DNA from: Cliona cf. orientalis
Taxonomy: Eukaryota > Porifera > Demospongiae > Clionaida > Clionaidae
NCBI GenBank assembly: GCA_963930775.1
Contig: OZ005690.1
Location: 13,294,411 to 13,358,410, forward strand
Direction of reading: 5' to 3'
DNA length: 64,000 nt
Of the stretch, positions 6,601 through 64,000 are shown one piece after another. The position numbers and the translations under genes were made by a program. Below the pieces are notes generated by a model. It had not been told where the DNA came from. It worked only from the letters and a program-made list of their open reading frames with translations, and did no database searches. Positions within the stretch are counted from its first letter, which is position 1. Every line of letters starts with the position of its first letter.

Positions 6601-8240
6601 ATGGTAGAAATGAACAAAGTTGACTTAGCACTCAAAGTAGCACTCAGTTTGATAATAATATTGCACTGCTGTGAAGGTGAGCTAATATTGAGAATTAACT
6701 TACATGTATCTGCTATAACTATAATCAAGGGCTTATAGACTTGGGATCTACTAGTCAGCCCTAATTATAGCTATAGGCCTTAAGGACAGATTTCCAGGTG
6801 AGTATAATATTATATTAAGATCATTCTAAATTTGTATAGGTACATCCATATCACTGTCTCCACTGGGAATGGTGTCTGTCTGTCCTGGAGGACAAATTCT
6901 GTTGACTTGTGAGACAAATAACTCCGTCTTCCACTGGATAGTTTCCAGTCCTCATCTGGACAGGCCTCGTGAAAGAATTGTCACAAGTCAAGGAATTTTA
7001 TTTTCACCAGAATTTAGGATAGGTTTCACAGAGTTCAATATCACACTGATATCAAGAAGCCCACTGATTAGTCAGCTGCTGATTAACAATGTGACTAATG
7101 GATCAAGAGTGTACTGTTCTGAAGACGGAAATGAAAACAATTCACCAATGAGCATAATTAACCAATTGCAAGGTATGATTATAGTCTAATTGATTATAGT
7201 TATAAATTAACAGGTGCGGATCAGAGTTCAAATCCCGGCCGGTTTGTTCCTGAATTTTTTTCTCTTCCCTTCACTTCTCAATCGCCTGTTTAGAGTACCT
7301 GCCTAATCAGTTACTAATAAGTTTACTATAGTAGCTGTTTAATTTTAATCCATAGATGATGCTTTAAGAAATGCCAATCATTCCCTCAATGTAACCTTGG
7401 TAAATCACATAATATTGAGGATTGACAATATCACAGTCACACTTCAATGGCCTCGAGAGCCTGGAGCAGTTTACAGCGTTAGTGTTTCACCGGAAATACC
7501 TCATACTGAATTTACTACAAGTGATCATGTCTTTGTGATTAACCTAACCATTTCTTACAATATTCAATATAATGTATCCATTGTATCAAGTCTCTGTGGT
7601 GTCACTACAACCAGGGTATTGAAATATGGTAAGCATAAACTATATAATGAATACACACATAATAATTATTATATTATTTTTCTTGTTAGCTGATTGTGGA
7701 GTACCACTGGTAGACAGTAATGTCAAGCTAGACTACAATTCTACTCTGGAGGGTTCTGTTTTAACATTGACCTGTGAGAATGCCTCATCTAGATCTACTG
7801 ATGAAGAAATCGTCAGTGTGACATGTCACAACAGTGGAAATTGGATTCCTGATCCAACTCAATTTACTTGCTCACCACCTACAACTGTACCATCAGGTAC
7901 AGAAACATCACCATTGACAACAGTAATGCTGACCGGATCTGCTAATCTGATAGCAGCAGTTTCATCGACTATGACTATTGTGTGTGCCGTAAGCTCAATA
8001 GTGTTCCTTTCCATTGGATATGCCTGTGGCTGGTTTAGTCAGAAACACAGGCAATCACGTACAAGTAAAGCAACATTTGATTCATCAGCTGAGGAGAATA
8101 TCAGCACTGCCAATGAAGGATCTCAACTGCCACCAACCCCAGGACCGCTATACGAGGAATTACAACAGAGATCTACGCCAGAACATCAGGACCTGGTTGA
8201 ACTGAAAGAGAATGTTGCATATGGACCAATTGTAAAATAA
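6601..8240 (+). CDS. Receptor A: Ig, FN3, CCP, TM, ITIM tail
   Basis: Exons: signal peptide 6601-6676, Ig 6840-7172, FN3 7356-7628, and CCP2+TM+tail 7690-8240; 410 residues. The signal exon has a hydrophobic core ending CCEG; an in-frame ATG at 6610 is an alternative start. The Ig exon has LLTC, then a Trp (HWIV), then VYCSEDG. The FN3 exon has TLQWPRE and YNIQYNVSIVSSLCG. CCP2 has four cysteines and GNWIPDP. The tail carries PLYEEL and the strict ITIM VAYGPI, with tyrosines 23 residues apart. Two oddities: CCP-1 is missing, with only a 61-bp gap between FN3 and CCP2, and the CCP2-to-TM intron present in B and D is gone, leaving some intron start sequence (GGTACAGAAA) as in-frame coding sequence. 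It is probably an inhibitory-type cell-surface receptor. The domain assignments are seen; the function is inferred. Confidence 0.85.
7200..7300 (+). repeat. tRNA-B-box-like repeat fragment in intron of A
   Basis: GAGTTCAAATCCCGGCCGG resembles a tRNA internal promoter B box. A closely similar block follows the Ig exon of pseudogene C (about 14165-14270), so the insertion predates the duplication that made A and C. Confidence 0.4.
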
Positions 8241-8748: not shown

Positions 8749-11539
8749 ATGTACCAATTTATGTGTCTGGCTTTCCAAGTAACACTCATCATCTGTGCTC
8801 AGTTACTCTTCTGCTGCTGTGAAGGTAAGCTCTTATAATAATTAATTAATCATGCACATCAAAAATGATTATGAGCTCATAATCAATGATCACAATAACA
8901 ATATCTAATACTAGTTATGGAAGTATTCGGGATATGTTGAGAGTTTTCCTATGCTTTAGCACTGGCTTTATGTAATAGTTAGACACTGTTTAGGAGGTTT
9001 CTACGTGATTTAGAAGACCGAAGCGCTCTATGTAGAATCCCGAGTGAAGCGAAGGTTCTACTGAGCCCTGAGGTCTTCAAAATCACGTAGAAACCGACTA
9101 AACAGTGTCTAACAACTTTAAATCCTAGCGACAATGTCCATAGGGTTGATATATAAACTGCTGCCTAGCAACAATCCTAACCATAGGCAACAATCTTTTA
9201 CAGGTTTATATGAAAAATTTATATGAGCTTTTTATAAGTTTATATGGGAAAAAGATACCTGCTTCTGACCAATCAGATATCAGTATTTGTTACAACTAGG
9301 ATCTAAATTATTTTTGTTTATAGCTACATCTATAATACTATCTCCATTGGGAATGGTGTCAGTCTGTTCCGGAGGGCAAGTTCTGTTGACGTGTGAGAGA
9401 ATGTCTGGCTCCATCTTGTACTGGGATGTTTCTGTTCCTCATCCAGTAGCCACAAATCGTGAAAGAATTGTCCTGAATCAAGGAATTTTACTGTCACCAG
9501 ACTTTAAGATAGGTTTTACAGAATTTAATGTCACCCGTACATCTGACAGCCCATTGACTAGTCAGCTACTGATTAACAATGTGACTACTGAGATAAATAG
9601 ATCAACCATCTACTGTTCTGAAGATGGTAATGAAAACAATGCACTGATGGTAACAATTGATGTCACAAGTGAAGGTATTATAATTCATACATGGGTGTAG
9701 GGATTATTATTCTTTCATAATCCTATAGATAGTTTTCTTAATCGATTGAATATTACCTTGATGAATCACTTCATGAGGAACAGTGTCACAGTCACACTTC
9801 AATGGCCTCGAGAAGATGGAGCAGTTTACAATATCAATGTTTCACCATTCACTGAGTTCACTAATGTAACGGGCCACAACAGCGCAAGCATTGTGATAAA
9901 TTTAACAATTTCTTATAACATTCAATACAATGTGAGCATTGCATCAAGTCTCTGTGGTGTCGCTACAACCAGGGTATTGAAATACGGTAAGTCACGATGA
10001 AAATGTATTATGTGGAAATAATCAATTATTTCCTGTTGCATGTATGCAGTAATCTGTGATCTACCGACACAACTGTTACATGACCCTGTTGTTATGGTCA
10101 ATGGATCTAAGGAAATCCCTTACAGAGAGGGACAGTTTATCACATACACATGCCCTACTGGATTTGTACTGAATGGCTCAAATACATCAGTGTGTACTGA
10201 GAATGGAGAATTGGAACCAGACCCTGGGGAGTTAGCTTGCATAGGTGATAATTAATGCCACTATATACTAGTACCATGGATAATAATAGTCAATGGATGT
10301 AATATTATTACTGCAATACAGCCGACTGTGGAGTACCACTTGTGGACAGAAATGTCACTCTGAACTACAATTCTACCCTGGCTGGTTCTAGTTCTGTTTT
10401 GGTATTAACCTGTGAAAGTGACATACCAGCTGTATCTATTATTAAACAGATTATCACTGTGACATGTTACAGCAGTGGAAATTGGATTCCTGATCCAGCT
10501 CAATTTACTTGTTCACGACCTACAACTGTACCATCAGGTACAGAAATATTGATCCATTCTGCACATTCTTCAGGTAGCAAACATTTATCACACTACCTAT
10601 ATGCAGTAGTACTATTGTCAAGGGTTAATTACTGTGCATGCATGTGCTTTTTATAATAGTTAGACACTGTTTAGGAGGTTTCTACGTGATTTAGAAGACC
10701 AAAATTAATGATCCACTGGGTACGAGGCCCTCGTACCCAGTGGATCATTAAAACAGTGTCTAACTATTATAAAACAGTGTCTAACTATTATAAAAAGCAC
10801 ATGCATGCATGCACAGTAATTAGGCAGGGGGGGGTGCTCAGGGGGCTCGAGCACCCCCCTCTGCTCTTGGCCTAGTCATGCCTAGTTCACATAGTCCATA
10901 GAACAGCCTCATCCAGCACCCCCTTGGCTACTCCAAACTATCGTCTACTACAAAAAAAACAGCTTAGAAGATAGTTAGAAACTTATCTCATCCCAAGATT
11001 CGGCCGAAAACCTTGAGCTAGCTCGCTAGCTACATTCAGAACGCTTGACAATTTGAACTTCGACCTTGACGGTTAATAAGTGGGCGTGGCTAAAATCCTG
11101 GCTACGCCCCTGGAGGCTATAGTAACTGCCAAAAGCAACATACAGTTTTAATATGGCACAGTAATAATATTCGAGAGTATAATATTATTATATTACCCGG
11201 TAGTACATATTAAATTTTATACAATGTAAATTTTTTTCAAATGCAGACTCTACAGTATATAGCTGTGTTTTCATCGACTGTATAATTGTCGTGTGTGCCG
11301 TAAGCTCAATAGTGTTCCTTTCCATTGATATGCTTGTGGCTGGTTTAGTCAGAAACACATGCAAGCAGTCACGTACAAGAAAATCAACATCAGCTGAGAA
11401 TACTGGCCCCAATGAAAGATCTCAACTGCCACCAACCTCAGGACCACTGTACGAGGAATTACAGCAGAGATCTACACCAGAACATCAGGACCTGGTTGAA
11501 CTGAAAGAGAATGTTGCCTATGGACCAATTGTAAAATAA
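8749..11539 (+). CDS. Receptor B: Ig, FN3, CCP, CCP, TM, ITIM tail
   Basis: Exons: signal 8749-8824, Ig 9324-9674, FN3 9729-9986, CCP1 10050-10244, CCP2 10322-10537, TM/tail 11247-11539; 462 residues, all internal boundaries phase 1. The signal peptide starts MYQFMCLAF and ends CCCEG. Each CCP has four cysteines; CCP1 has GQFITYTCPTGF and CCP2 GNWIPDP. The tail has PLYEEL and VAYGPI. The end of the membrane segment is unusual: a one-base loss turns the normal GYACGWFSQKHK into DMLVAGLVRNTC, and a small insertion about 30 bases later restores the frame before the tyrosine motifs. Intron 1 and the CCP2/TM intron each carry a MITE. The gene is likely functional as a membrane protein, but the altered junction makes this less certain than for D. 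Confidence 0.83.
8978..9113. mobile_element. MITE copy 2 in intron 1 of receptor B
   Basis: Palindromic element from GTTAGACACTGTTTAGGAGG to CAGTGTCTAAC. The right flank to about 9305 holds the accompanying module (CCAATCAGATATCAGTATTT, GTTACAACTAGGATC). Confidence 0.75.
10636..10812. mobile_element. MITE copy 3 embedded in a larger inverted repeat, intron of B
   Basis: The left MITE arm starts at 10659. The centre is replaced by a perfect palindrome, AATGATCCACTGGGTACGAG and its complement (about 10707-10750). The right side has two copies of AACAGTGTCTAACTATTATA. Flanking intron sequence GCATGCATGTGCTTTTTATA reappears inverted on the right, so the whole 177 bp forms one hairpin. Confidence 0.65.
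10820..11115. repeat. G/C-tract repeat in intron of B
   Basis: Begins GCAGGGGGGGGTGCTC with a matching GAGCACCCCCC nearby and ends near CTGGCTACGCCCCTGG. It looks like a decayed element related to the one at 12163-12408. Confidence 0.35.
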
Positions 11540-14959: not shown

Positions 14960-17073
14960 ATGCACCAATTTATGTGTTTAGCTTTCCAAGCAGTTCTCAC
15001 CACTTGTGCTTCACTCTTCTGTTGCTGTGGAGGTAGTAACCATGACTTTTAGCCTGGGGACTAGACTACTGTTGCACTGTGCATCCCTTGAATTGGCAGC
15101 CCAATAATAGACCTACCTCTCTAAGAGGTCTATAAGTGAACTAAGAGGTCTCTAAGTAAGTGGAATAAATAATGGACCTCCAATTGACCAATCAGATTGC
15201 TATAACTCTATTCTAATAATAAATTAAGCTATCCATAGTAACGTAAGAACATAGAGGCATGGTTGAAGGTTTTCCTATAGCTATAATATTTATTTTTAAT
15301 ACCTAAATTTAAATTTTAGCTACATCCATATCACTATCTCCACTGGGAATGGTGTCAGTTTGTCCTGGAGGGCAAGTTCTGTTGACTTGTGAGAGAATGT
15401 CTGGCCCTTTCTTGTACTGGAATGTTTCTGTTCCTCGTCTGGCTATGAATCGTGAAATTATTATCTCAAGTGTAGGAGTTATCAGTGCAACATATTTAAA
15501 TTTTGGCACATTACTTTCTACAGCATTTAATATCACACGTACATCTGTTAGCCCATTGATTAGCCAGATGGTGGTTAATAATGTGACCACTGCAATAAAT
15601 GGATCAACCATCTACTGTTCAAATAATGGTGATGAAAATGGAGCACCAATGGCAATGATTAATGTCATCAATGAAGGTATATTGAATGATACATGTGTTG
15701 TTTGAAATTAATAATTAAATCTGTTCATGATTCTTGTGAAGTACAGAATCTGATAATCCTCTCAATGTCAACTTAATGAATCACTTCTTGAGGAACAGTG
15801 TCGCAGTCACACTTCAATGGCCTCGAGAGGCTGGAGCAGTTTACCACGTCAATGTTATGCCAGAAATACCTCACACTGAGCTTACCAATACGATGCATGA
15901 CCACGTTTTGATAAATCTAACTATTTCTTATAACACTCAGTACAATATATCCATCATATCAAGGCTCTGTAGTGTCACTACGACTAAGGTGTTACAATTT
16001 AATTATGGTAATGAGCCATAATATTATTATCCATGATGAATCATGGATATTATTATACTCATTATCCACATACTCCAGTTACCTGTGATCTACCATTGCA
16101 ACTGTTAGAGCGACCTGTTATTGTGGTCAGTGGATCTCAGGATAGCCCTCCAATAGAGGGACAGTTCATCACATACACATGCCCTCCTGGATTTATACTG
16201 ACTGGCCCAAATGCATTGGAATGTACTGGGAATGGAAGATGGGAACCAGACCCTGGACAAGTGGACTGCATAGGTAATAATACCAGTAATTAAATCCATG
16301 GCAATGGACATAATATTAATGCAGCTGACTGTGGAGTACCACAATTGGACAGAAATGTCACCTTAAACTACATTTCTACACTGGAAGGTTCTATTTTAAC
16401 ACTAACCTGTGAAGATGATACTTCCGCTGATGGACAGATTCTCAGACTGAATGTGACATGTCACAGCAGTGGAAATTGGATTCCTGATCCAGCTCAATTT
16501 ACCTGTTCACCACCTACAACTGTACCACCAGGTACAGAAATATTGATCCATTCAACTCCACATTCTTCAGGTAGCAAAAAATATTTATTGCACTACCTAC
16601 TAATACCTATACCTAGATCAACCAAAAACTCTGAAACACTCAGTATCACATGCACTGTAATTTCTTAGAATCTAATAAATATTGTGCACCGCAGAAATCT
16701 TTGTAGTTTATGGCACTGTAGTAATAATATAATAATTGAGGATATTATAGTACATAATATTTATACGGCATAAATTTTCTCAAATGCAGACTCTGCTAAT
16801 TTGATAGTAGCTGTATTCTCATCGACTATAGTTATCGTGAGTGCAGTCTGCTCAATAGTGTTCCTTTCCATTGGATATGCCTGTGGCTGGTTTAGACATA
16901 AGTACAAGCAATCACGTACAAGCAAAGCAGAAGATGGGAAGAGCAATGAAGGATCTCAACTGCCACCAACTCCAGGACCACTATACGAAGAATTACAGCA
17001 GAGATCTACACCAGAATATCAGGACCTGGTTGAACTGAAAGAGAATGTTGCCTATGGACCAATTGTAAAGTAA
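14960..17073 (+). CDS. Receptor D: Ig, FN3, CCP, CCP, TM, ITIM tail (intact)
   Basis: Exons: signal 14960-15032, Ig 15320-15676, FN3 15747-16007, CCP1 16079-16273, CCP2 16325-16531, TM/tail 16790-17073; 458 residues. This is the cleanest member of the family: all splice sites are GT/AG, all boundaries phase 1, and no lesion is seen. The signal peptide starts MHQFMCLAF and has a Leu/Cys-rich core. The Ig exon has LLTC, LYWNV and TIYCSNNG; the stretch between the Trp and FNITR differs strongly from A and B. CCP1 (GQFITYTCPPGF, WEPDPG) and CCP2 (GNWIPDP) each keep four cysteines. The TM is followed by GYACGWFRHK and a tail with PPTPGPLYEEL and VAYGPI. It probably acts at the plasma membrane, recruiting SH2-domain phosphatases or adaptors once phosphorylated; that role is inferred from the ITIM consensus only. 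Confidence 0.9.
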
Positions 17074-20642: not shown

Positions 20643-22789
20643 ATGAATTACCGACTTCGAAGTTTAATGTTTCAAGTAGTCCTTGTCAGTGCTTTATGCT
20701 TGTACTACTGTGAAGGTATATTATAAGCTCCATGCCATGGCATTTATTGTAGGCAATAATATCATGAATATATACTAATTATAACTAGCTTAAGTAGCAC
20801 ATTTTGTTAAGCTGCAGAGAATTGTGAGTAGCTACTTAAAAATTTAGTTTTACAATGTTATGATAGGTACATCCATATCACTATCACCAATGGGAATGGT
20901 ATCTGTTTGCCCTGGAGGACAAGTTCTGCTAACATGTGGTATAAACACTGGCCCTTTCTTGTTCTGGACAGTTTCTGTTCCTCACCTGGCTATGACCCGT
21001 GACACTGCAGTCGCAAATCAAGGAGCTATCCGTACAACAGATCTACGATTTGATGACTTACATTCTTCTGCATTTACTGTCACACGTACCTCCAGTAGCC
21101 CATTGACTAGCCAGATGATGATTAATGTTACTACTGAAATGAATGGATCAACCATCCACTGTTCTGAAGAAATGATCAATGGCAATGCAAATAGAGTGCC
21201 AATAGTAACAATTAATGTCACCAATAAAGGTATTTGAACAATAGAGAATTATTATTTTTAATTATAATGTTTTATCATGGAAGTACAGATCATCCTCTTA
21301 ATGTTACCTTGATGAATCACTTCTTGAGGAACAGTGTCACAGTCACACTTCAATGGCCTCAAGAGCCTGGAGCAGTTTACCACGTCAGTGTTTCACCAGA
21401 AATATCACACACTAGCCACAATAGTACAATGATAAGCCTAATGATCTCTTATGACATTCAATACAATGTTAGCATTGAATCAAGTCTCTGTGGTGTTACT
21501 ACAACCAGGGTATTAAAATATGGTAGGTATGAAAGAATATTGCATGTATACCTATGCCTCAGGACTAATAATTATTACACGCAGTTACCTGTGATCTACC
21601 AACACAATTGTTAGAGCGCACTGTCATTGTGGATACTGGATCTCAGGAAAATCCTCACATAGAGGGACAGTTCATCACATACACATGTCCACCTGGATTT
21701 GTACTGAATGGCTCAAACGCATCAGTCTGTACTGAGAATGGAGAGTGGGAACCAGACCCTGGAGAATTGGATTGTATAGGTGATAATTAATGCCAAAATT
21801 AATATTATCACTAATCTGACTCGATTTCTGTTGCAGTGAATAATTTATATAAAGTATTCATACACATACGTATACAGCTGACTGTGGAGTACCACTTATA
21901 AACAGCAACGTGAAGCAAAATTATAATTCAACTTTGGAGGATTCTGTTTTAATGCTAACCTGTGAAAATGTGGTGTCTAGTATTGTGCATATGAACACTA
22001 CAGATCAACAGATTCTCAGTGTGACATGTCACAGCAGTGGAAATTGGATTCCTGATCCAACTCAATTTACTTGTACATCATCTACAACTGTACCATCAGG
22101 TATCATAAACTTAATAATGAATGCAAAGTTTTTATGAGCGGCTTATAATAAGGGCTCAGAAGCAAAGTGGGCTAACCCACAATAATAAATGGTCACTTAT
22201 AGCAATCCCCCATGTAGAATCTGCATGCCAGGACATCAAAAGGCTCGTGCATCCAGTTCCATCGAAGACATACTATTGCCTATAGTTAGCACACGCAACC
22301 GAGAAATACCATACAATAACTGATGATTTGTAAGTGTAAATTAAATCTCTCTTGTAGCGATCCTTGCACGTTATGTTATGCATGTTAAATATAATATGAC
22401 AGGCATACATGTCCAATGTATGTTGATGTTGTATGTCCATGAGATTGATAGTATGTATACTATAGCAAAGTAATAATATATTTATATGCATAATTACAGG
22501 TTTTACTTGGAGTACCCTACTAATTATCATACTAATTCTTTCTGGTGTTATTTTAATTATTATTTTACTTGGATTACTGTTAATAATTATCTGTGTGATT
22601 AAAAGAAAGTGTGTGGTCACAAAGACACCAAAGACATCAAAGAATGATCTGCAGAGCCAGGAGCCAATGTACGACGAAGTCAGTGACACACATCTTAAAG
22701 GAATACAGATGGAAGGTAATGCTGCATACAGCCACATGGTACAGACAAGTCAAAACGAACACTTGCCGTTGAAGTCAACAGGTATTTAA
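20643..22789 (+). CDS. Receptor F: Ig, FN3, CCP, CCP, TM, YxxM tail
   Basis: Exons: signal 20643-20715, Ig 20867-21229, FN3 21289-21522, CCP1 21585-21779, CCP2 21878-22099, TM/tail 22500-22789; 458 residues, all internal boundaries phase 1. The ectodomain follows the family plan and its Ig exon is nearly identical to that of gene G (both contain LFWTVSVPHLAMTRDT and SEEMINGNANRVPIVTI). The last exon is unrelated to the ITIM tail: a long Ile/Leu-rich membrane segment, a basic IKRKC stop, then PMYDEV and, 19 residues on, AAYSHM. The latter fits YxxM, the consensus for PI3-kinase p85 SH2 domains. This suggests a positive-signalling partner for the inhibitory-type members. Motifs are seen; signal polarity is inferred. 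Confidence 0.9.
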
Positions 22790-23735: not shown

Positions 23736-24440
23736 TTTAAATGCCTGGACCCCCCTGCCAAACGTAATTTGTTTAAATGCCTTGACCCCCCTGCCAAAAT
23801 GACGTAATTTGTTTAAACACCACTACCCCCCTGACAGACCGTAGTTTTGTTTAAATGCCTCGATCCCCTGCCAAACGTAATTTGTTTAAACCCCACTACC
23901 CAGTACCCCCTGACAAACTGTAGTTTTGTTTAAATGCCTCGATCCCCCTGCCAAACGTAATTTGTTTAAATGCCTCGACCCCCCTGCCAAACGTAATTTG
24001 TTTAAATGCCTCGACCCCCCTGCAATACGTAATTTGTTTAAACACCACTACCCCCTGACAATCGTAGTTTTGTTTAAATGCCTCGACCCCCCTGCCAAAT
24101 GTAATTTGTTTAAATGCCACTACCCGGTACCCCCTGACAAACCGTAGTTTTGTTTAAATGCCTCGATCCCCCTGCCAAACGTAATTTGTTTAAATGACTC
24201 AACCCCCCTGCCAAACGTAATTTGTTTAAATGACTCGACCCCCCTGCCAAACGTAATTTGTTTAAACACCACTACCCCCTGACAAACCGTAGTTTTGTTT
24301 AAATGCCTCGACCCCCCTGCCAAACGTTATTTGTTTATACACCACTACCCCCTGGCAAACCGTAGTTTTATTTAAATGCCTTGACCCCCCACTGAATGTA
24401 TCATGTATTTAAGGCCTCAACCCCCTTGCCAAATGTAATT
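23735..24440. repeat. Minisatellite, ~34-40 bp unit, about 18 copies
   Basis: Units such as AATTTGTTTAAATGCC plus TCGACCCCCCTGCCAAACGT alternate with a variant having GTAGTTTTGTTTAAA and CACCACTACCCCCTGACAAAC. Open frames across it (about 23926-24147 on plus, 23896-24323 on minus) encode the repeat itself and are not genes. Confidence 0.9.
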
Positions 24441-26269: not shown

Positions 26270-27115
26270 TTAAACATAATTATTATAGGGCACTTTGAAA
26301 TTCGTGGTTGGTCTTTTTAAGTGAAATTTATTTGCTCCCCTTGTACTGCTGTAATCAAAATTTGAATTTGTCATAAATTTGTAGAGTGGGGCACATCTGT
26401 GGAGGCATCTATGAACTTGGAGTAGCCGCAGGGTAGCATTCTGCCTTCTAATCTTCAGTGTGGTTAGGCCAAGCTGCTTTCTGAGTGGTTCACTGCTTGT
26501 ACACGGTGGTGGTTTGCTAAGGATAATCCTCATAGCATAGTTTTGGATTTGTTCTACCTGGTCACTGAGCTAGGGTTTTAATACTGCTTCAGCAGTCATA
26601 TACAACTGAATAGTAGTCAAGTTGGGAGAGTATGAAACTCAGAGCTGGTATAGTGATTTCCAAAAGCTTACTGGAAGATGGTTCCATAACGGCGAAGAAA
26701 GGCTATAGGCCGACTAGACACTTCCGGCGCAGGTTTAGGATGTGAGGTTTCCAGTTAATTGAGCTTGCATATTGTTGTCTACAATGACTCCAAGATACTT
26801 CACCTTTTCTTGCTGGACAATTTCCATTTAGACAAAGTTTGATAGTTTTGGCATACTTCTGTCTCCTTGGTGGACTCAAAAACCAACAATTGTGTTTTAT
26901 CTTCAAACCATTATCCTCTATCCACTTTACTAAACATGCCAGATCACTGCCAAGTCGGTCTCTAATGATGGATGGGTCCTTGGCAGAGCAGTAGATAGTG
27001 GTATCGTTTGCATAGAGATTTATGGAGCAGTGTTCAACGACTCGGGGTATATAGATCATTCACAAAGATAGTAAACAGCAATGGACCCAGGATGGTACCC
27101 TAGGTGACTCCAGTA
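26270..27115 (-). pseudogene. Decayed non-LTR retrotransposon reverse transcriptase
   Basis: The minus strand encodes LYANDTTIYCS near 27010, a degenerate form of the reverse transcriptase catalytic motif (usually YADD), followed by LACLVKWIEDNGLKIKHNC. The upstream text resembles the G-P-x-G-S-x-LGPLLF region but contains stops. A second open piece, 26533-26270, has LRKQLGLTTLKIRRQN and LHRCAPLYKF, typical of the region after the RT domain in LINE ORF2. Stops and frame breaks separate the pieces, so the element cannot be active. The family looks CR1/L2/jockey-like; I cannot resolve it further. Confidence 0.75.
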
Positions 27116-27505: not shown

Positions 27506-30500
27506 TCATTTTGGTACACTCTTTGGTGGCCTGGGGGGAGCTGATATCTTTTTAGGCACATCAGATCTGCAATATTAACCAATAACTTAAAAGAAGTCTG
27601 ACTAACCGTATTCTATTGAATGAATACCACATGTACGTACATTGTCAAGTGAAACTTTAACATTGGCTAGCCTAAGGGTACATACATATTATTATAATTA
27701 ATATTTACCCAGCAAGTGGCTTAGGTGGTAGAGGTGGTAGTGATTCATCCTGATAGTGGTTGTACTTGTTTATCCTTACTCTTTCCTCCTCTTGTTGAGG
27801 CAACTCCAGAGCAGTTTTGGTGAACACTTGTTGGGAATCATCATCATCATCAGCATGTACAGGTAGTTTTCCTGAAAAATATGGCAATACTAGTGCACAC
27901 ACACACACAAAATTAATGTCATGTGCACACACATGTAATGTACACACTATCATGCATAATATTATGCACATAATATTAAGTTCGAACTCTTATGCCACAG
28001 CAAAATCAAGTAAACACGCCACTTTCTAGTGAAAAATTAGGTATTATAATAATTATTATTACCTGTTTCATAAACCATTTCAATATCATTAGCCAGTTTC
28101 TGAAGACCAATCCTTCTCAGTGCATTAGCGACATCTCTCCAAGTTGGGCGTCCTGGGAAGTTTCTAAGCCACTGATCCAGTATCTCCACAATGCTCTCCT
28201 CAGGTGGATAGTTAGAACACTTGTCCAGAACATCTTTACTGACCTCAAGAGCCTGACCTAACTGATACCACCGCGATGTTACAGCTCCTCGTACTTGGAT
28301 CAGTAGAGTGTTAAGGTTGAGGGAATCATCTGCATCAAAATTTACTTTAGGCAAAATTTGCATACATTATAAAATTTAATATGTTTACCAGCAATGGAGT
28401 CCTGGTTTGTTGCGATAACTGGCCTCTGTAAATTGTGATTTAATAGTGCATACTCCACTCTGTCATCCATATCATCTGGTTTTAGAGTGATAAACTGTTT
28501 AGCCCTCTTTTTTACAAAAGATGGTCCAATGTCAGCATAAACCACGGTATGATCCTGCTGGACTACTGGGTCTGGCTGTCCTGGTGAATTCTGCATAAAT
28601 AGTGGATCGGTTAGATACCTAGGACAAGGAATCTATATACAGTATTTAGCATCCCAATTGCAATGGTCCTGAGCTGTGACACCCGAGCATTGCGAGGGTA
28701 TTACAGTGTAGTCCACTTAATTCAAATCCGCTTAAGATGAATTTTGTCTAATTCAAATTCTTTCAGATTCCCTACATAGAGTTAATAATGATAAGCTTAC
28801 TACCAATGGCCTTGGTAAAGGCAGATGTGGAAACAGGCTAGAGAAGAGAGACACATTATCCTGGAACAAATTCCAGGATCCAGCCGGGATTTGAACTCGG
28901 GACCTCCTGATTTCTAGTCAGACACTCTTACCACTGAGCTACTGGACCGGCAGCGGAGTGTAGGAAGATGGCATTTCCATAGGACATGAGGTCCTATGGA
29001 AATGCCCTAGGTCCAGTAGCTCAGTGGTAAGAGTGTCTGACTAGAAACAGGGGTGGGCAAATGGGAGCCAAAGAGCCAATTGTGGCTCCACCAGGATTTC
29101 TTGTGGCTCTTGGCTAAGATCTGACAATTTGTTAGCTACACTAAGCTAGAATAATTGTCACTGGCTTTAGGTATTTTAATTATGTGATCAATTGAAGAAT
29201 ATCACTGCGGCTAGCTATTTATAATACGAGGTTTAAGAACATCTTATCAACTTGACAAGTATGTTTTTTTCTCAAAAAGAAGGGATAGCTAATGAGTAGT
29301 TTTGCCAGCCCCCATAAAATAAGTAATGTTTCAAGTGAAGTTTTGGGGGGGGGGGGGGAGGGGGAGGGGGTGGGGAGTGGGGAGGTCGAGATCGTCAGTG
29401 CTGTGTATGCATGGGCATTGGCTCTACAGTAGAACTTTCCTTGTAACTTTGGCTCAGTGATTCAGTTCGCTTGCCCACCCCTGTAGAAATCAGGAGGTCC
29501 CGAGTTCAAATCCCGGCTGGATCCTGGAATTTTTTCCAGGATAATGTGTCTCTCTTCTCTAGCCTGTTTCCCTACATAGAGCTAATACATAAATTTGAAT
29601 TGGTCTTTTAAATTCTCTTAATTAGAAAAATTACAGCCAGCTTTAGCATACAAAAGTACACATATTTATATAAATATAGAACAGAGATCACATGCATAAT
29701 ATTATGGAGATCACTACAATCCTCATTGAGATACTGTGAAACTATAAGTGTCTATTATACTTAAATCACTCTCAGAACAATTCTAAAGCTTCATATATGG
29801 CTGAATGCTCCACTAATAAGCATTGCAGGGTCTCAATACAGTGTTTTATATGGATCTCTGTAATTCAAATTTTCGTTTAATTCAAATATTTTTCATGGAT
29901 TTAGAGATTCGATTTAAGTGGACTACACTGTACTAAGGGATGCTAAATACCATTGGCCAAGGTGAGCTAAGTTATTTAGAGTTTTACAACTGTTGCTATA
30001 GTAATTTGCCTTGGAGCTCCATGGATCCTATTGGCCAAAATTTACAAGTAACTGATACCTACAAGTAATTTATAGCTATTCTAAAATTACCTAGTGCACT
30101 ATATGAATTATAGTATTGCTAATAATTATGCAGATCTATTAGCCAACTGTTTTGCCGCTCATTGATGCTAGCTATATACTATACTATAATATTATTATAA
30201 ACTCTGAAATAAGTACCATAATAATGTTATAATAATTACGTGTTGATTCTATAATTATGTCATGCATGCATGGAAATTTCCCAAACACAATACGTATCAT
30301 GCATGTAGTTACCTATACTCGTATATTAATTACCTCAGCATGTTGGTGATAAGCATTTTCTAGCTGAATGTTACTGCAAATAATATTATTATTATATCGA
30401 TGATACAATTTTATGATATAGCCATATATTGAACATGCATGGTTTCTGTGGCCTGTATAATAATATAATATTATTATTATGACATTGTAGAGTTTCTCTA

Positions 30501-32243
30501 CATCTTGGTATGTGCATGACTTTCTCTCAGTTTCTACACCAGTTTACCTGTTAGCGACTATCCTCTTTGATTGCATAAAATCTATAAAATTGGCTTTGTT
30601 TCAGGGTATATACTCACAATAATTATTATGGCAGTACCTCCTTTAATCAAGCATAAAATAGCTGCAACAGCAGTGATAATGACTGTAGCACCAATTATTA
30701 GTACCCCCAGCACACTGCCAAGAATTATTTCTAGACCAGTACCTGCAGCTGGTGGTACATGTACAGTTATAGATGATGAACAAGTAAACTGAGTTGGATC
30801 AGGAATCCAATTTCCACTGCTCTGACATGTTACAATAATAATTTGTTCATTATCATTCATATTTTCACAGGTTAAAACTAAAACAGATCTAGAACCCTCC
30901 AGAGTAGAATTGTAGTTTAGAGTGACATTCCCGTCCACAAGTGGTTCTCCACAGTCAGCTGCATGATAAAATAATAATATCATGTGCATGACATAATAAT
31001 TATTATTATCACCTATGCAGTCCACCTGTCCAGGGTCTGGTTCCCATTCTCCAATCCCAGTACATACTGATGCATTTGGGCCAATCAATACAAATCCAGC
31101 TGCAGGAGGGCATGTGTATGTGATGAACTGTCCCTCTCTGTGAGGATTTTCCTTAGATCCATTGACCATAACAACAGGGTCATGTAACAGTTGTGTTGGT
31201 AGATCACAGGTTACTGCATAATATGTTAAATATAATTATGCAATAGCAATGTTAATATTGTGCATAATTATTAATTTTCCACATAATACATTTTCATCGT
31301 GACTTACCATATTTCAATACCCTGGTTGTAGTGACACCACAGAGATTTGATACAATGGATACATTGTATTGAATGTTGTAAGAAATTGTTAAATTTATCA
31401 CAATGCTGTTGTGGCCCATTACATTAGTAAACTCAGTGACTGGTGAAATATTGACACTGTAAACTGCTCCAGCTGCTCGAGGCCATTGAAGTGTGACTGT
31501 GACACTGTTACTCAAAAAATGGCTCACTGTGGTAACTTTCAATCTATTAAGAAAGCGATCTATAGAAAATCAACATCATAATAAGAGATTACAACTCCAA
31601 TTCATTCAAATACCTTTATTGGCGACATTAATTGTTACTATTGGCACTCTATTTGCATTGCCATTGATCATTTCTTCAGAACAGTGGATGGTTGATCCAT
31701 TCATTTCGGTGGTAACATTAATCATCATCTGGCTAGTCAATGGGCTACTGGAGGTACGTGTGACAGTAAATGCAGAAGAATGTAAGTCATCAAATTGTAG
31801 AACTGTTGTACTGGTAGCTCCTTGATTTGCGACTACAGTGTCACGAGTCATAGCCAGGTGAGGAACAGAAACTGTCCAGAACAAGAAAGGGCCGGTGTTT
31901 ATATCACATGTTAGCAGAACTTGCCCTCCAGGGCAAACAGATACCATTCCCAGAGGGGACAGTATTATAGATGTACCTATCACTGATAAAAAAATTAATA
32001 AAGTCCATAAAATATTTCAAGCAATAATCATGATTGATAGCAATGTTAAACTTTATAGCTACACAGCTTTTTTGCTGTAGATACTCCACTATGACCACGT
32101 ACGTTTTGGTAATAAAATTTAATAGGTTAGACACTGAAGCCAAGGGATCTACTAATTATTATACCTTCAGAGCAGCTGGAGAGTGTTAATGTTATCATTA
32201 ATACTCGAAATGTTGACTTGTGAATCGGTATAAATAGGTACAT
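27506..32243 (-). CDS. Receptor G: Ig, FN3, CCP, CCP, TM, two ITIMs, Death domain
   Basis: Eleven exons (minus): 32243-32165 signal, 31976-31614 Ig, 31559-31308 FN3, 31213-31013 CCP1, 30958-30638 CCP2+TM, 30581-30548, 30373-30334, 28590-28389 ITIMs, 28344-28063 Death, 27871-27709 proline-rich, 27566-27506 end. Together 665 codons plus stop, with every phase matching. Ig about residues 27-147, FN3 to 231, CCPs to about 360, TM about 376-404. The tail has VVYADI and VEYALL, both strict ITIMs, tyrosines 29 residues apart. Residues about 500-590 form a Death domain (SRWYQLGQALEVSKDVLDKC, LDQWLRNFPGRPTWRDVANA, LRRIGLQKLANDIE). The C-terminus has PPLPPKP and APPRPP, SH3-ligand type. The long intron 28591-30333 holds nested transposons. 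This combination is unlike any receptor I know. It implies a membrane receptor linking phosphotyrosine and Death-adaptor signalling (inferred). Confidence 0.92.
28876..28948 (-). tRNA. tRNA-like sequence (anticodon AGA), probable SINE head
   Basis: On the minus strand GGTCCAG pairs with CTGGATC as a 7-bp acceptor stem with one G-T wobble pair. The D arm is GCTC/GAGT and the anticodon stem TCTGA/TCAGG encloses CTAGAAA (anticodon AGA). The T arm CCGAG-TTCAAAT-CCCGG has one mismatch. Serine tRNAs normally have a long variable arm; this one has only about 5 bases. That, and its repetition at 29010, favour a tRNA-derived repeat over a working tRNA gene. Confidence 0.5.
29010..29524 (+). other. Second tRNA-like copy, split by an insertion
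   Basis: The 5' part 29010-29047 (GGTCCAGTAGCTCAGTGGTA onwards) and the 3' part from 29484 (TAGAAATCAGGAGGTCCCGA onwards) are the same tRNA-like sequence as at 28876-28948. The break falls in the anticodon loop and TAGAAA is repeated on both sides. Confidence 0.65.
29048..29483. mobile_element. hAT-type non-autonomous element
   Basis: Ends CAGGGGTGGGCAAATG and CTTGCCCACCCCTG form terminal inverted repeats. TAGAAA is duplicated at 29042-29047 and 29484-29489. Inside is a G-rich tract from 29345. CAGGGG ends are typical of hAT elements, although the visible duplication is 6 rather than 8 bases. Confidence 0.75.
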
Positions 32244-54245: not shown

Positions 54246-56421
54246 ATGGTGTTCTGGCCAGAAATGCATCTACTTCTAATTTTAGTGTTCCAAGCAGTGC
54301 TCATCAGTGATTTACACTTATACTACTGTGAAGGTATATGCATATAATTACTATAATAATTGGTCCACAGTTGTGCATGTCAAAAATTAATAAATATGAT
54401 TATGGACTTCGGTGATAGGTACATCCATATCACTATCTCCATTGGGAATGGTGTCAGTCTGTCCTGGAGGGCAAGTTCTGTTGACTTGTGAGATAATGTC
54501 TGGCTCCTTCTTGTACTGGGATGTTTCCATTCCTCATCTGGCTATGAGTCGTGAAAATATTGTCTCAACTCAAGGAGCTATCAGTACAACAGCTCTGCAA
54601 TTTAATGGATTACATTTAACAGAGTTTACTGTCACCCGTACGTCTGAAAATCCATTGACTAGTCAGTTGCTGATTAATAATGTGACTACTGAGATAAATG
54701 GATCAACCATCTACTGTTCTGAAGATGGAAATGAAAATGGAGCACCAGCAGTAGCAGTGAATGTCATATATATAGTGAGGGTTAGTTTATCAGTAGAAAT
54801 GTCATTTTCACAGATCAATATTAAAATGGAACCTTCCAGGGTAGAAGTTAGTGTCATATTATATTACTATGGTATAATAATTAATGATGTCAAAATCATA
54901 ATCAATGATCTAATGCTTTTCAAAGTATAGGTCGTTTGTTCAATGTCACCATGGTGAACCAATTCTTGAGAAACAGTATCACAGTCACACTTCAATGGCC
55001 TCGAGAGGTTGGTCCAGGAGCAGTTTACCATGTCAATATTTCACCAGAAGCATCCCACACTGAGTTAACTAATCACCATAACAATATTGTGATGAATCTA
55101 ACAATTTCTTACAACATTCAATACAATGTTAGCATTATATCAAGTCTCTGTGATGTTATGAAAACTACAACCAAGGCATTGAAATACGGTAGGTATGATA
55201 ATGATTCAGAAATAATTTTACATGTACCAGGTGACTCCAGGCTCCCCAATCTCATGTATATAACTGGCATGGAAAAACTGGGAAGAGCCTGCGTATGAGG
55301 CTGGATAATAATATAATATTATTGTCATAATTATTTTTTGCAGTTACTTGTGATCAACCAACACAACTGTTAAATGATCCTGTTGTTGTGGTCAGTGGAT
55401 CTCAGGAGATTCCTCACAGAGAGGGACAGTTCATCACATACACATGCCCTCCTAGATTTGTGTGGACTGGCCCAAATGCATCCATATGTACTGGGAACGG
55501 AGAATGGGAACCAGACCCTGGAGATGTGGCATGCATAGATTGTACACAATAATATTATTATCAATGCAATGCCACTTTAGTACAATTAGTAGAATAATAA
55601 TATTTTGATCATGAATTCATAATGCAGCTGACTGTGGAGTACCTGTTTCAAATGCTACGCTTAACTACAGTTCTACTCTGGAGGGATCTGTTTTAACATT
55701 GACCTGTGAAAATGACATTTCTACTGATGAACAAAGCCTCAGTGTGACATGTCACAGCAGTGGAAAGTGGATTCCTGATCCAGCTCTGTTCACCAATATC
55801 TACAACTGTACTACTAGGTACAGAAATATTGATCAATTCAACTCCACATTCTTCAGGTAGCAAATATTTATCACACTACCTACTCAGTAGTACTATTATC
55901 AAGGGGATATTGTATATGCATGCGCTTTTAATAATAGTTAGACACTGTTTAGGAGGTTTCTATGTGATTTAGAAGACCAAAATTAATATGCTAATTAGTA
56001 ATTATGTAATTGCCAAAAGCAACACTCAGTATCACATGTGCTATAGTTTAATAATAATATTGAAAGTATAATCTATGGTACATAATAATAATATTATTAA
56101 ATTTTCTCAAATGCAGACTCTGCTAGTTTGACAGTAGCTGTGTTCTCATCGACTATAGTTGTCGTGTGTGCCATAAGCTCAATAGTGTTCCTTTCCATTG
56201 GATATGCCTGTGGCTGGTTTAGTCAGAAACACAAGCAATCACGTACAAGAAAAGCAGTGCCAGATTCATCAGTTAAGGAGAATACTGGCCCCAATGAAGG
56301 ATCTCAACTGCCACCAACCCCAGGACCACTATACGAGGAATTACAGCAGAGATCTACACCAGAACATCAGGACCTGGTTGAACTGAAAGAGAATGTTGCC
56401 TATGGACCAATTGTAAAATAA
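54246..56421 (+). pseudogene. Receptor I: family plan complete but damaged
   Basis: Exons: signal 54246-54333, Ig 54419-54871, FN3 54931-55188, CCP1 55344 to about 55541, CCP2 55628-55817, TM/tail 56117-56421 with PLYEEL and VAYGPI. Three defects are visible. The Ig exon runs past its usual end into an antisense scrap of a CCP2 exon (54795-54855) before a phase-1 GTATAA donor at 54872. The CCP1 donor, normally ATAG|GT, reads ATAGATTGT, leaving only a cryptic GT three bases on. In CCP2 a net loss of 5 bases, including AATTTACT, removes the last cysteine, shifts the phase, and gives an early stop in the TM exon. Skipping CCP2 would restore the frame, so a transcript could still encode a receptor; otherwise it is a recent pseudogene. 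Confidence 0.65.
55937..55986. mobile_element. MITE copy 5, truncated, in intron of I
   Basis: Only the left arm, GTTAGACACTGTTTAGGAGG to AGAAGACCAAAATTAAT. It lies at the same intron position as copy 3 in gene B, with matching flanks. Confidence 0.7.
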
Positions 56422-58545: not shown

Positions 58546-58584
58546 ATAATGAATAATATTATAGTTGTTTCATGATATCCATAG

Positions 58585-59827
58585 ATGAATTTTTGTGTAG
58601 CATGGATAGTTCCCTCAATGTTACCATGGTGAATCAACTCTTGAGAAGTGATGATGTCACAGTCACACTTCAATGGCCTCGAGAGCCTGGAGCAGTTTAC
58701 CACGTCAATGTTTCACCAGAAATATCACACACTGAGCATGTTTCTATGGGGCACTACATCTTCACAATAAATGTAACCATTTCTTATAACGTTCAATACA
58801 ATGTATCGATTGTATCAAGTCTCTGTGGTGTCGCTACAACCAAGGTATTGAAATATGGTAAGTGAACTTAATATAGGAATTGATTGATTATTAAAGACAG
58901 AAAGCTGCTGTCTTTAATTATTCTTTTGCATAATATATATATACACTAATACAATACAGTTACCTGTGATTACCCACCAACGCAATCATTACATGATCCT
59001 GTTGTTTTGGTCAGTGGATCTCAGGACAGCCCTCCAATAGAGGGACAGTTCATCACATACACATGCCCTCCTGGATTTATACTGACTGGCTCAAGTATAT
59101 CAATATGTATGGGGAATAGAGAATGGGAACCAGACCCTGGAACGGTGGACTGCATAGGTAAATGCAATACATCACTGAATCATAGATTAATACATTCAAT
59201 AATAAATTATGATAATCATTGGCTATCGTACATACAGCTGACTGTGGAGTACCACTTGTGAACAGAAACCTCAAGCTAAATTTGATTTCTACTCTAAAGG
59301 GCTCTCTTCTAACACTGACCTGTGAAATTGAGACGTCTCTTAATTCCACTACTGAAATGACCCTCAATGTGACATGTGACAGCAATGGAAGTTGGATTCC
59401 CAATCCAGCTGATTTCATTCAGTCTTGTTCACCATTCAGTAATGAGTAGTCGAAAGTATCTGATAAGATTCTATGGTCAATCCTTTTAGGAAGATAATAA
59501 TATTATTATTCATTTTCCTCAGATGCAGAATCCTTGTTATGGACACCAGTTTCATCGATTCTAATTGCTGTGTGTGCCATAATCTCAATAGTGTTCCTTT
59601 CCATTGGATATGCCTGTGGCTGGTTTAGTCAGAAACACAACCAATCACGTACAAGAAAAGCAGCATCTGAATCATCAGTTGAGGAGAATACTGGCCCCAA
59701 TGAAGGATCTCAACTGCCACCAACCCCAGGACCTCTATATGAAGAATTACAGCAGAGATCTACACCAGAACATCAGGATCTGGTTGAACTGAAAGAGAAT
59801 GTTGCCTATGGACCAATTGTAAAATAA
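58585..59827 (+). CDS. Receptor J: FN3, CCP, CCP, TM, ITIM tail; 5' end lost
   Basis: Exons: FN3 58585-58857, CCP1 58960-59157, CCP2 59238-59438, TM/tail 59523-59827. All are open and phase 1. FN3 has TLQWPREPGAVYHVNVSPE, nearly the same as K; CCP1 has GQFITYTCPPGF; CCP2 has SNGSWIPNPADF and CSPF. The membrane segment is the LLWTPVSSILIAVCA subtype shared with E and K, then GYACGWFSQK, PLYEEL and VAYGPI. At the end of CCP2 a deletion fused exon and intron (TCACCATTCAGTAATGAG), but the resulting GTAATG is a usable phase-1 donor. Without the signal peptide and half the Ig domain it may be expressed only by splicing from an upstream gene, or not at all. Confidence 0.65.
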
Positions 59828-61018: not shown

Positions 61019-61734
61019 TTATTTTACAATTGGTCCATAGGCAACATTCTCTTTCAGTTCAACCAAGTCCTGATGTTCTGGTGTAGATCTCTGCTGTAAT
61101 TCCTCGTATAGTGGTCCTGGAGTTTGAGGATGTAATTGTTGAGATTCTTTATTATGCTGGTGTGGATTGTTTTCCTCAACAGATGAATCTGGTGCTTTAC
61201 TTGTACGTGATTGCTTATTAAGACCACAAGCATATCCAACGGAAAGGAATACTATTGAGCTTACAGCACATACAGCAATTAATATTGATGAAATTGGTGT
61301 CCATAACAAGACTGTCAAGGTTTCTGTAGCTGAGGAAGGTGAACAATGTCTTCATTCATTAAAAGGATTAACCATAGAATCTTATCAGAATCAGATACTT
61401 TAGACTACACTCATAATAGACCACTATAAATAATTATTAAAGGCAATGTATAATAATATAATCCATAATATTATAAGTGTTGAAAATTAATTAGTACCTG
61501 TTGTTGGTGATACAGTTGCACTGAATGGTGAACAAGACTGAATGAAAGTACTTGGATCTGGAATCCACCTTCCACTGCTGTCACATATCACATTGAGGGT
61601 CATTTCGTTAGTGGAATTAAGAGACATCTCATTTTCACAGGTCAGTGTTAAAACAGAACCCTCCAGAGTAGAACTGAAATTTAGCTTGAGATTTCTGTTC
61701 ACAAGTGGTACTGCACAGTCAGCTGTATGATAAT

Positions 61735-61945
61735 TACCGTATAGCGGGAAACTTTCGAGAGAGAAAACTTTCACGAATTTCGTGATTTTCCCGCCATCCG
61801 CAAAAGTTTTCTCCACGAAATTCTAGGCATGCCACACCCATTATGCGATCAATTTTAACATTCCGCGAAAGTTTTCTCCGCGAAATGCTCCTTTCCTACC
61901 GATCCGTGAAAGTTTTCTCCCTCGAAAATTTCCCGCTATACGGTA
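61735..61945. mobile_element. MITE, TACCGTATAGCGGGAAA ends, in intron of K
   Basis: TACCGTATAGCGGGAAACTT and the outward-reading right end TACCGTATAGCGGGAAATTT bound 211 bp rich in GAAAGTTTTCTCC and its complement. Confidence 0.85.
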
Positions 61946-62754
61946 TGATTTGGTGTTATAATTAATCTCTATGATTCTTAGTACCTATGCAGTCCACTTT
62001 TTCAGGGTCTGGTTCCCATTCTCTATTTCCAGTACATACTGATGCATTCGGGCCAGTCAGATTGAATCCAGGAGGGCATGTGTATGCGATGAACTGTCCC
62101 TCTATTGGAGGGCTATCCTGAGATCCACTGACCACAGCAATAGGGTAATATGTTGGTGGATAATTGCAGGTAACTGTATAATGTGTGCATGTGTATATTA
62201 TATGCATATGACATCCTTTATATATTGCCCTAGGCATCAACGCAAATTGTAGGTACAAAGATATACATGCAGCAGCTTTGTATCTAATTACTTATAATAA
62301 TAATAGCCATCGATTATTATTATTATGCTTATAACTCACCATAGTTTAGCAACTTGGCTGTGGTGACATTACAGAGACTTGATACAATGCTTATGTTATA
62401 CTGAGTGTTATAAGAAACAGTCAGATTTGTCATGATGGTCATCACATAAGTAAGTTGAATATGTGATACTTCTGGTGAAACATTGACATGGTAAACTGCT
62501 CCAGGCTCTCGAGGCCATTGAAGTGTGACTGTGACATCATCACTTCTCAAGAGTTGGTTCACCATGGTAACATTGAGGGAACGATCCATGCTATGCAAAA
62601 ATTCATCTATGGAATTAATGATTATGAAACAATTAATTTACCGTCATTTTTCATTATCATACCCTTGTATTTGACGTTTACTGCTATCATTGATGCATTT
62701 TTTTCATTGCCATCTTCAGAACAGTAGATGGTAGATCCATTAATCTCAGTAGTC

Positions 62755-63439
62755 TTGTACCATGGTTGTAACATTCTGACCAATCAGGTTGCTTCATAGG
62801 AGGTGTCTAAATAACTTGTATACCTCTTGTAGGTGTCTAAATATTTAGACACCTATCTCTGAGGCTATGAAATTTTACATGATCATGCCCGCTAGGGTAG
62901 TTACAGCATCTTTTGTTAGTGAAAGAGATCAAGTACAGAGCTCTAGTGCTATGCAGAGTACTGTATGCAGATGATTAGTGGGCAGGTCTTACTGCGTTAA
63001 TTGAATAGGTGGAGCGAATGATTTGCCAAGTCAGCAGTAGTAAAAAAACTTAGCTGCACTCTGACTACCTCGAGTTGAAATCAAGACAGCGATGACATGG
63101 CCGGCCTTTTATACGCAGAGACGATAGTATTGTGGTTCTGAATGTCAAGCAAGAAGCTCGAGTTGGACAGAAAACGGCGTCGGCTCACTATGCGTCGATG
63201 TCTAGCGTCGACTCGATCGACGACGATGGTTTGAACTGTTGCTAGGTACGCGCTCGAGCCTTTTATGGCCGGCGCTGTAGTTGCTAGGCCATAGATACGT
63301 TGTCAGGACCACGTAGCCCATGGTACAAGTCGGTTACATCACTCGGTTCGGTCTCTACGCGATTTACACAGCCTCGGGCCTCCGGCCCTCGGTGTGTAAA
63401 TCCCGTAGAGACCTCCACCTCGTGATGTAACCTATACAT
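62755..63439. mobile_element. Element X, copy 2, inside the Ig exon of K
   Basis: Inverted copy of about 57432-58146, including the GTGTAAATCCCGTAGAGACC palindrome and TTGTACCATGGTTGTAAC at the left end. It splits the Ig coding sequence between LLINN and TTEINGST. No obvious target duplication; about two bases of the exon appear replaced. Confidence 0.85.
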
Positions 63440-64000
63440 ATTGTTAATCAGCAGCTGACTAGTCAATGGGTTGTCAAATGTACGGGTGATATTAAACTCT
63501 GTGAAACCTATCCTAAATTCTGGTGACAGTATAACTACTGGACTCGCTAGGACAATAATTCTATGACTTGTGGCACCAGCCAGGTGAGGAATAGAAACAT
63601 TCCAGGACAAGATGGAGCCAGACACTCTCTCACAAGTCAACAGAACTTGCCCTCCAGGACAGACTGATACAATTCCCAATGGAGACAGTGTTATGGATGT
63701 ACCTAAAAGAATTAATGCATGATTGGCTATCATTGCAAGCAATAAATGATAAATTTTATATACTTGGAGACCTGTGCTTTTAAAGTTTATGTTAATTGAT
63801 AGCACAAAGATATGATCTCCTACATGCTATTTTATAGATTTCTTACACAATTATTATAATAATTAAAACTAATATGCAACTTACTATCGCCGTCGTAAAA
63901 ACACAGAGCATAGATGAATGCTACTAATCTTGCACTGAATCGGAGCATTTCTGACATCTGTCTAGTGTCTAGATCTATCACAATCACAGAGGGGTAGGAA

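Follow-up and report, generated by a model that had tools for sequence, protein, structure and literature searches.

The DNA analysed here is a window of 64,000 nt, and its surroundings were followed over 164 kb (the window plus 50 kb on each side). On the minus strand of the window we found a gene for a predicted receptor, hereafter the target, with eleven exons that run from an ATG at 32243 to a stop codon at 27506 (Table 1). The exons are bordered by GT donors and AG acceptors and join in phase, and the junctions chosen here give a predicted protein of 662 residues. An earlier reading of this stretch from the letters alone (the sequence-only reading) had described the eleven exons as one 665-residue frame; the in-phase join held, and the length differs by three residues. 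The modules follow in the order Ig-like, FN3-like, sushi, sushi-like, transmembrane helix, two immunoreceptor tyrosine-based inhibitory motifs (ITIMs), Death domain and two SH3-ligand motifs. The earlier proposal that a single gene model unites such an ectodomain with ITIMs, a Death domain and SH3 ligands is supported by our results. The least certain piece of the model is the micro-exon 30581-30548 (34 nt), which has several phase-compatible alternative borders. Exon 1 has no second copy within the 164 kb at E 0.01, and a weak similarity to it was seen in paralogue p13426 (37.5%, E 0.089). All four ectodomain exons have phase 1 at both ends, which would allow exchange between ectodomain and tail.

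The Death exon scored 29.7 bits with Pfam PF00531 (gathering cut-off 22.6), and the Death domain named in the sequence-only reading was thus confirmed by a hidden Markov model (HMM). By sequence, this exon matched nothing in PDB better than E 0.14. In a fold comparison, CARD and PYD rows tied with Death rows, and the comparison was not used to discriminate among them. The first sushi domain also passed its threshold (Pfam Sushi PF00084, 23.2 bits vs a cut-off of 20.7), and its counterpart in a window paralogue scored 36.1 bits. The Ig, FN3 and second sushi modules of the target reached no Pfam cut-off, the second sushi being without a scored stretch of its own. A profile built from six window copies of the Ig exon gave 18 matches in PDB, all to antibody or T-cell-receptor chains and all at E 0.32 or worse. 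The FN3 exon of the target was modelled as all-beta with poor confidence (predicted local distance difference test, pLDDT, 49) and had neither a Pfam fn3 nor a PDB match; a frame homologous to it at a distant locus (L058, family HMM E 3.8e-7) scored 18.4 bits with Pfam fn3, below the cut-off of 25. Since no Pfam threshold was passed, the PDB matches of the Ig profile were at E 0.32 or worse and the FN3 model was poor, we call these two modules Ig-like and FN3-like. Ectodomain exons 2-5 gave no TNFR match at E up to 1, and exons 2-5 and 8-10, scanned singly, gave no ZU5 or thrombospondin match. The whole protein found no protein-database homologue at E 0.001 among the 8000 best word-sharing candidates, and the tail found none at E 1 among 1644 candidates; these negatives say little because the database is taken as mostly microbial.

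Table 1. Exons of the target gene and receptor paralogues in the window
Feature	Position	Strand	Basis
Exon 1, start codon and candidate signal peptide (MYLFIPIHKSTFRVLMITLTLSSCSE)	32165..32243	-	in-phase join, GT donor
Exon 2, Ig-like domain (V-type pattern)	31614..31982	-	C..W..C pattern; family alignment A2
Exon 3, FN3-like domain	31308..31559	-	alignment A1; all-beta low-confidence model
Exon 4, sushi (SCR) domain 1	31013..31213	-	Pfam Sushi score
Exon 5, sushi-like domain 2 and transmembrane helix	30638..30958	-	hydrophobic stretch; homologous paralogue exons
Exon 6, cytoplasmic micro-exon, borders uncertain	30548..30581	-	one of several phase-compatible short exons; paralogues do not confirm
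Exon 7, micro-exon with QLENAY motif	30334..30373	-	paralogue counterparts
Exon 8, two ITIMs, VVYADI and VEYALL	28389..28590	-	tyrosines 29 residues apart; kept in paralogues
Exon 9, Death domain	28063..28329	-	Pfam PF00531
Exon 10, acidic linker and SH3-ligand motif PPLPPKP	27709..27871	-	(A)PPLPPKP in 10/12 relatives
Exon 11, SH3-ligand motif APPRPPK and stop	27506..27566	-	PPRPPK in 8/12 relatives
Closest ectodomain paralogue, third tail (PMYDEV, NAAYSHM)	20860..22786	+	Ig 92% identical to target
Tandem paralogue, short two-tyrosine tail (PLYEEL...ENVAYGPI)	6836..8237	+	sequence matches
Tandem paralogue, short tail	9320..11536	+	sequence matches
Short-tail tandem paralogue, sister to Death-tail gene p13426 by ectodomain	15316..17070	+	sequence matches, tree
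Tandem paralogue, short tail	54406..56418	+	sequence matches
Tandem paralogue, short tail; Ig match only partial, farther upstream (56697-56837)	58584..59824	+	
Tandem paralogue, short tail	61022..63745	-	sequence matches

The target had been presented as a single molecule, and we found it instead to be one member of a large family. A whole-genome search with the target protein gave at least 37 rows covering the Ig part (hand count, target included), a lower bound since 67 of 1064 candidates were scored. The Death exons from this search were 53-93% identical and nearly all lay on C2 at 12.0-13.9 Mb, with two on C10. When the tail only was used, 154 matches were obtained; about 125 of those listed (a few were not shown) are Death exons by hand count, after subtraction of 12 ITIM and 14 C-terminal rows. 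Death exons were spread over C1, C2, C3, C4, C5, C6, C8, C9, C10, C11, C13 and C18. Twelve tail relatives were read from fetched loci. In p12615, p12873, p12977, p12986 and p13426, the Ig, FN3, sushi 1, sushi 2, transmembrane, ITIM and Death parts are collinear on one strand, the transmembrane match being weak in three of the five; the remaining seven are truncated by locus ends or partly unmatched. Exon borders of the paralogues agree with those of the target wherever matches reach exon ends, and the APPLPPKP-type and PPRPPK motifs recur in 10 and 8 of the 12 relatives.

The architecture extends to loci far from the window. We chose six distant Death loci, from C1, C2, C3, C10, C11 and C13, and inspected about 6 kb of each. 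All six match the target Death exon at E 1e-21 or better; L055 and L056 passed the Pfam Death cut-off (33.0 and 23.8 bits), and the other four scored 17.1-20.3 bits, below it. At L055 (C2), L057 (C13) and L058 (C11), frames for Ig (E at most 1.5e-6), FN3 (E at most 9.9e-5) and sushi were recognised by HMMs of the target family; a transmembrane stretch, two strict ITIMs and the Death exon follow and complete the full module set. Two of the three sushi frames of L058 passed the cut-off (35.2 and 22.5 bits). The same HMMs matched no ectodomain frame at L053, L054 and L056, where Ig-like and FN3-like frames, then a transmembrane stretch and then Death were recognised by eye. One FN3 frame of L053 reached 21.3 bits (cut-off 25), and one strict ITIM was found in L054, with none noticed in L053 and L056. 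Directly upstream at L055 (L055:1-447, C2:11.334 Mb) lies the end of another Death-tail gene with a PPPIPPK motif, indicating that distant members are in tandem too. In the whole-genome search with the target protein, long open-frame values had hinted at intronless copies that might serve as natural cDNAs; this was rejected, as the collinear matches at six loci checked for it are interrupted by introns. On the one strand translated, those loci contain no open frame of at least 150 aa.

None of eight other Death loci (L001-L008) matched a target exon at E 0.01, and no Ig/FN3 ectodomain was noticed in the frames of L001, L002, L003, L005 and L007. These loci form a weak control, since they reach about 1.5 kb on each side, less than the Death-to-Ig distance of the target. 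L003 (C2:2.99 Mb) has a Death domain, a transmembrane stretch and an NTP-binding (STAND-like) part, labelled by eye, in one long frame.

The ITIM pattern is [SIVL]xYxx[ILV], and the two strict ITIMs that the sequence-only reading had placed 29 residues apart, VVYADI and VEYALL, are present in the target and conserved in its relatives. ITIM1 was strict in 12/12 copies that cover it, target included (p12601 is without that stretch), ITIM2 was VEYAxL in 13/13 copies, target included, and the tyrosines were always 29 residues apart in the 12 copies. Pairwise ratios of nonsynonymous to synonymous substitution rates (dN/dS) were computed among Death-tail genes. Over 78 pairs each, the ITIM exon had a median of 0.30 and the Death exon one of 0.36; the medians of FN3 (15 pairs) and sushi 1 (36 pairs) were 0.56 and 0.76. 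These medians suggest that the tail is under tighter constraint than the ectodomain among Death-tail genes, with the reservation that gene conversion may distort all dN/dS values. Between the target and its closest ectodomain paralogue, dN/dS was 0.30-0.37 in the four ectodomain exons, a single comparison that lends the contrast between tail and ectodomain no support.

The target is almost certainly one gene from the ectodomain through the Death domain. Otherwise, two genes would have been misjoined: a receptor with ectodomain and transmembrane helix, ending ahead of the long intron, and an independent gene for a cytosolic ITIM-Death protein, starting near 28590. We regard this as very unlikely. 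The long intron of the target measures 1.74 kb, but it contains a tRNA-like insertion, and the distance from transmembrane to ITIM exon, 2048 bases in the target, is 295-600 bases in the five collinear paralogues, whose order, strand and borders match, and 478-1136 in four others. The ITIM exon of the target is preceded, at a distance of two codons, by an in-frame ATG; such an ATG lies within 5 codons in 6/12 relatives and at 11 codons in one more. However, ATGCAG is a common acceptor ending (4/10 target acceptors), and in p12977, p12986, p12873 and p13037, three of which have the full module set, a stop comes before any in-frame ATG, so that their ITIM exon cannot start a gene in this way; p12601 is uninformative here. 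Although the window neighbours of the target have no Death tail, a micro-exon with QLENxY is kept between the transmembrane and ITIM exons: a counterpart of exon 7 with AG/GT borders and QLEN(A/T)Y was found in four paralogues, and variants in another four. Paralogue synteny thus led us largely to reject the separate genes.

Around the target, both strands of the 164 kb carry numerous copies of the Ig-FN3-sushi-sushi ectodomain. We examined the tails of 15 neighbouring copies: 13 are short (PLYEEL, ENVAYGPI), one is a third type, and one copy, just left of the window, has no short tail in its slice. Of the two tyrosine motifs in the short tail, one is PLYEEL and the other, VAYGPI, is ITIM-like. 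Within the 164 kb, ITIM and Death exons occur in no copy other than the target, and no remnant of a short tail was found in the target gene at E 10. Its closest ectodomain paralogue, with the third tail, lies 10 kb away in the opposite orientation; the two share 76% DNA identity over the ectodomain block (31982-30761 / 20861-22093), and the similarity ends at the block edges.

One ectodomain copy, at 13796-14413 (+), has an in-frame stop and a broken short-tail remnant, and is probably a decaying array member. In-frame stops of this kind in some neighbours raise the question of whether the target copy, within a family that works, is itself silent or decaying. We consider this quite unlikely, given that its frame is open, its splice sites are intact and its dN/dS against the closest ectodomain paralogue has the low values given above.

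Other features were recorded at the locus. At 34630-37770 (+), a divergently oriented neighbour combines a transmembrane stretch with one Ig-like and one FN3-like exon, the latter at 15.3 bits and so below the cut-off. In the long intron of the target, a tRNA-Ser (AGA) match was detected at 28876-28948 (-) by ARAGORN and Rfam (61.8 bits), accompanied by a pair of 88-nt inverted repeats at 99% (28829-28916 / 29484-29571); the tRNA-Ser element is perhaps a tRNA-derived short interspersed element that lengthened this intron. A stretch just downstream of the gene, at 26706-27059 (-), weakly resembles reverse transcriptase (15.0 bits, under the cut-off), and a 36-bp tandem repeat array (TGTTTAAATGCCTCGACCCCCCTGCC...) with interleaved variants occupies 23734-24433.

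The relation between ectodomains and tails was examined across the genome, where a search for the short tail gave 60 rows, 59 of them on C2. The tree built from 21 ectodomains took in 6 from Death-tail genes, 13 from short-tail genes, 1 with the third tail and 1, s_m1359, that was labelled short although no short tail was found in its slice. The Death-tail ectodomains did not form one clade (approximately unbiased test, p 1e-32; four label changes). As s_m1359 has no Death exon in the 164 kb, this test holds despite its label. The target was sister to the third-tail copy (support 100/100), and the sister of p13426 was a short-tail copy (100/99). A pair of adjacent genes on C13 is 98.4% identical in DNA over a 1.2-kb ectodomain stretch (L057:553-1759 vs 2943-4159) and differs in its tails, the first gene having PIYEEV...NVAYGPI and the second LVYADI, VQYADI and a Death domain. 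The tree and the C13 pair together indicate that ectodomains and tails have been exchanged repeatedly. Near-identical ectodomains on different tails are one mark of paired receptors, along with opposite signalling outcomes of the two tails, and the C13 pair shows the first of these; the pairing of the target itself is weaker, with 92% Ig identity, 76% DNA identity over the cassette and a different tail. Judged from these sequences, the family has the appearance of a paired-receptor system, one arm of which carries ITIMs and a Death domain.

The reading we lean towards, with modest confidence, is that the target is a type I membrane receptor of such a system whose tail acts as a two-way switch. 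The ectodomain would bind a self, non-self or microbial ligand. A Src-type kinase may phosphorylate both ITIMs, on which a tandem-SH2 phosphatase (SHP type) would dock and restrain nearby signalling and Death-domain assembly. If receptors clustered without this phosphatase brake, the Death domain could nucleate a Death-fold complex, FADD-like or related, and so bring about cell death or a response of NF-kB type. The PxxPxK motifs may recruit SH3 proteins, for example the kinase, and the short two-tyrosine tails on like ectodomains would allow the same binding surface to be read out differently. Genes for possible partners are present in the genome. SH2, SH2 and PTP matches lie in order on one strand at C8:9936138-9938107, and two further such sets at C4:7505653-7513694 and 7445030-7460998; these are candidate SHP-type phosphatases, each taken as a single gene from order and strand. 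On C1 at 36.37 Mb, a DED match (below cut-off) and a Death match stand 2 kb apart, and are likewise taken as a single gene.

One result on the ITIMs calls for caution: two matches to the ITIM pattern arise in 8% of whole-tail shuffles (P 0.08), so the motif count alone is weak, even though they arise in 0.3% of shuffles of exon 8 (P 0.003). We regard the ITIM pair as more than chance because it is kept in paralogues, and not because of the motif count. Our fuller proposal is tentative and somewhat less than probable: one chain would hold both a phosphatase brake and a death trigger, and ectodomain cassettes would be exchanged between short and ITIM-ITIM-Death-SH3 tails within a large recognition system of an early-branching animal.

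The main rival to the switch is an UNC5-like scaffold without a killing function. As in UNC5 and ankyrins, the Death domain would hold a signalling complex, and the tyrosines would dock kinase, adaptor or endocytic proteins in adhesion or migration. This is possible but rather doubtful. Large tandem receptor arrays with exchanged tails, such as those found here, are typical of recognition systems and not of guidance receptors, and point away from it, whereas the SH3-ligand motifs and the extra conserved tyrosine (QLENxY) suit a docking tail. It also has a model in UNC5, a guidance receptor in which SHP2 recruitment goes together with Ig domains and a Death domain (PMC6080411).

If the tail works as its motifs suggest, the target would be a natural receptor with an ITIM brake and a Death-domain trigger on one chain, far from vertebrates. 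Inhibition and killing, which are split between mammalian receptors, would be united on a single molecule, and allorecognition or immune recognition would be tied directly to cell death. Self/non-self recognition would then gain a concrete candidate gene complex in this animal, probably a sponge to judge from its expansions of Death and Ig/FN3 receptors, and paired receptors with tail exchange would have arisen outside vertebrates, tunicates and cnidarians.

Mammalian paired receptors of the KIR, LILR, SIRP and CEACAM types have near-identical ectodomains on different tails and ITIMs for SHP phosphatases, and the family described here resembles them. The family differs in that its second tail type is none of the known activating tails; the mammalian receptors are not known to have a Death domain. 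Fas and TRAIL-R have ectodomains of TNFR cysteine-rich type, to which exons 2-5 of the target showed no match. UNC5, to our knowledge, has no sushi domain and does not form a tandem array; its thrombospondin and ZU5 domains have no match in the target exons scanned.

The sequence-only reading had stated that known Death receptors have TNFR-type ectodomains, which does not hold for UNC5, with its Ig and thrombospondin domains, ZU5 and Death domain (PMC6080411). UNC5 is like the target in joining an Ig ectodomain (Ig-like in the target) to a Death domain and, for the target by prediction, in phosphotyrosine recruitment of an SHP-type phosphatase; phosphorylated UNC5C recruits SHP2 (PMC6080411). 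Fas and TRAIL-R share with the target a Death domain in the tail, and SHP-1 recruitment has been reported for both (PMC5066474, PMC10967194). Their SHP-1 site, in contrast, lies within the Death domain: SHP-1 binding to human Fas requires Death-domain Y291 (PMC5066474), and TRAIL-R binds SHP-1 at its Death domain and has no ITIM (PMC10967194).

Among invertebrate systems, the FcoR family of Botryllus schlosseri comprises 53 loci with variable-type Ig, sushi, transmembrane and a long tail with ITIM or hemITAM, and its alleles and splice forms swap motifs (PMC12065747). It resembles the target family as a multigene set with variable-type Ig (Ig-like in the target), sushi, transmembrane and ITIM tail, a likeness drawn by description, but has two C2 Ig domains in place of the FN3-like and second sushi-like modules of the target, and no Death domain is mentioned in the passages considered (PMC12065747). 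Sponges have Ig-TIR receptors and, in Dysidea avara, one gene with Ig and CARD (PMC6208332). In these, an Ig ectodomain is joined to a TIR or Death-fold module, much as the Ig-like ectodomain of the target is joined to its Death domain; the signalling module is a different one, and the text of that paper nowhere mentions ITIMs (PMC6208332). The TM-DED-TRADD-N expansion of Crassostrea virginica is also a large lineage-specific receptor set with an internal Death-fold module, unlike the target in its cysteine-rich ectodomain, its DED and TRADD-N, and the lack of any mention of an ITIM in the section that describes it (PMC8195603).

In our literature search, no title, abstract opening or passage covered, with few subscription papers and no preprints among them, describes a receptor with explicit ITIMs and a Death domain in one tail. 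The architecture had been called new, and this stands in part: SHP recruitment together with a Death domain has precedents in Fas and TRAIL-R, whereas explicit ITIMs beside a Death domain, and the exchanged tails, keep their novelty. Paired ITIM receptors and death receptors are each known; a tail that unites the two and can be exchanged is, as far as our search went, apparently new.

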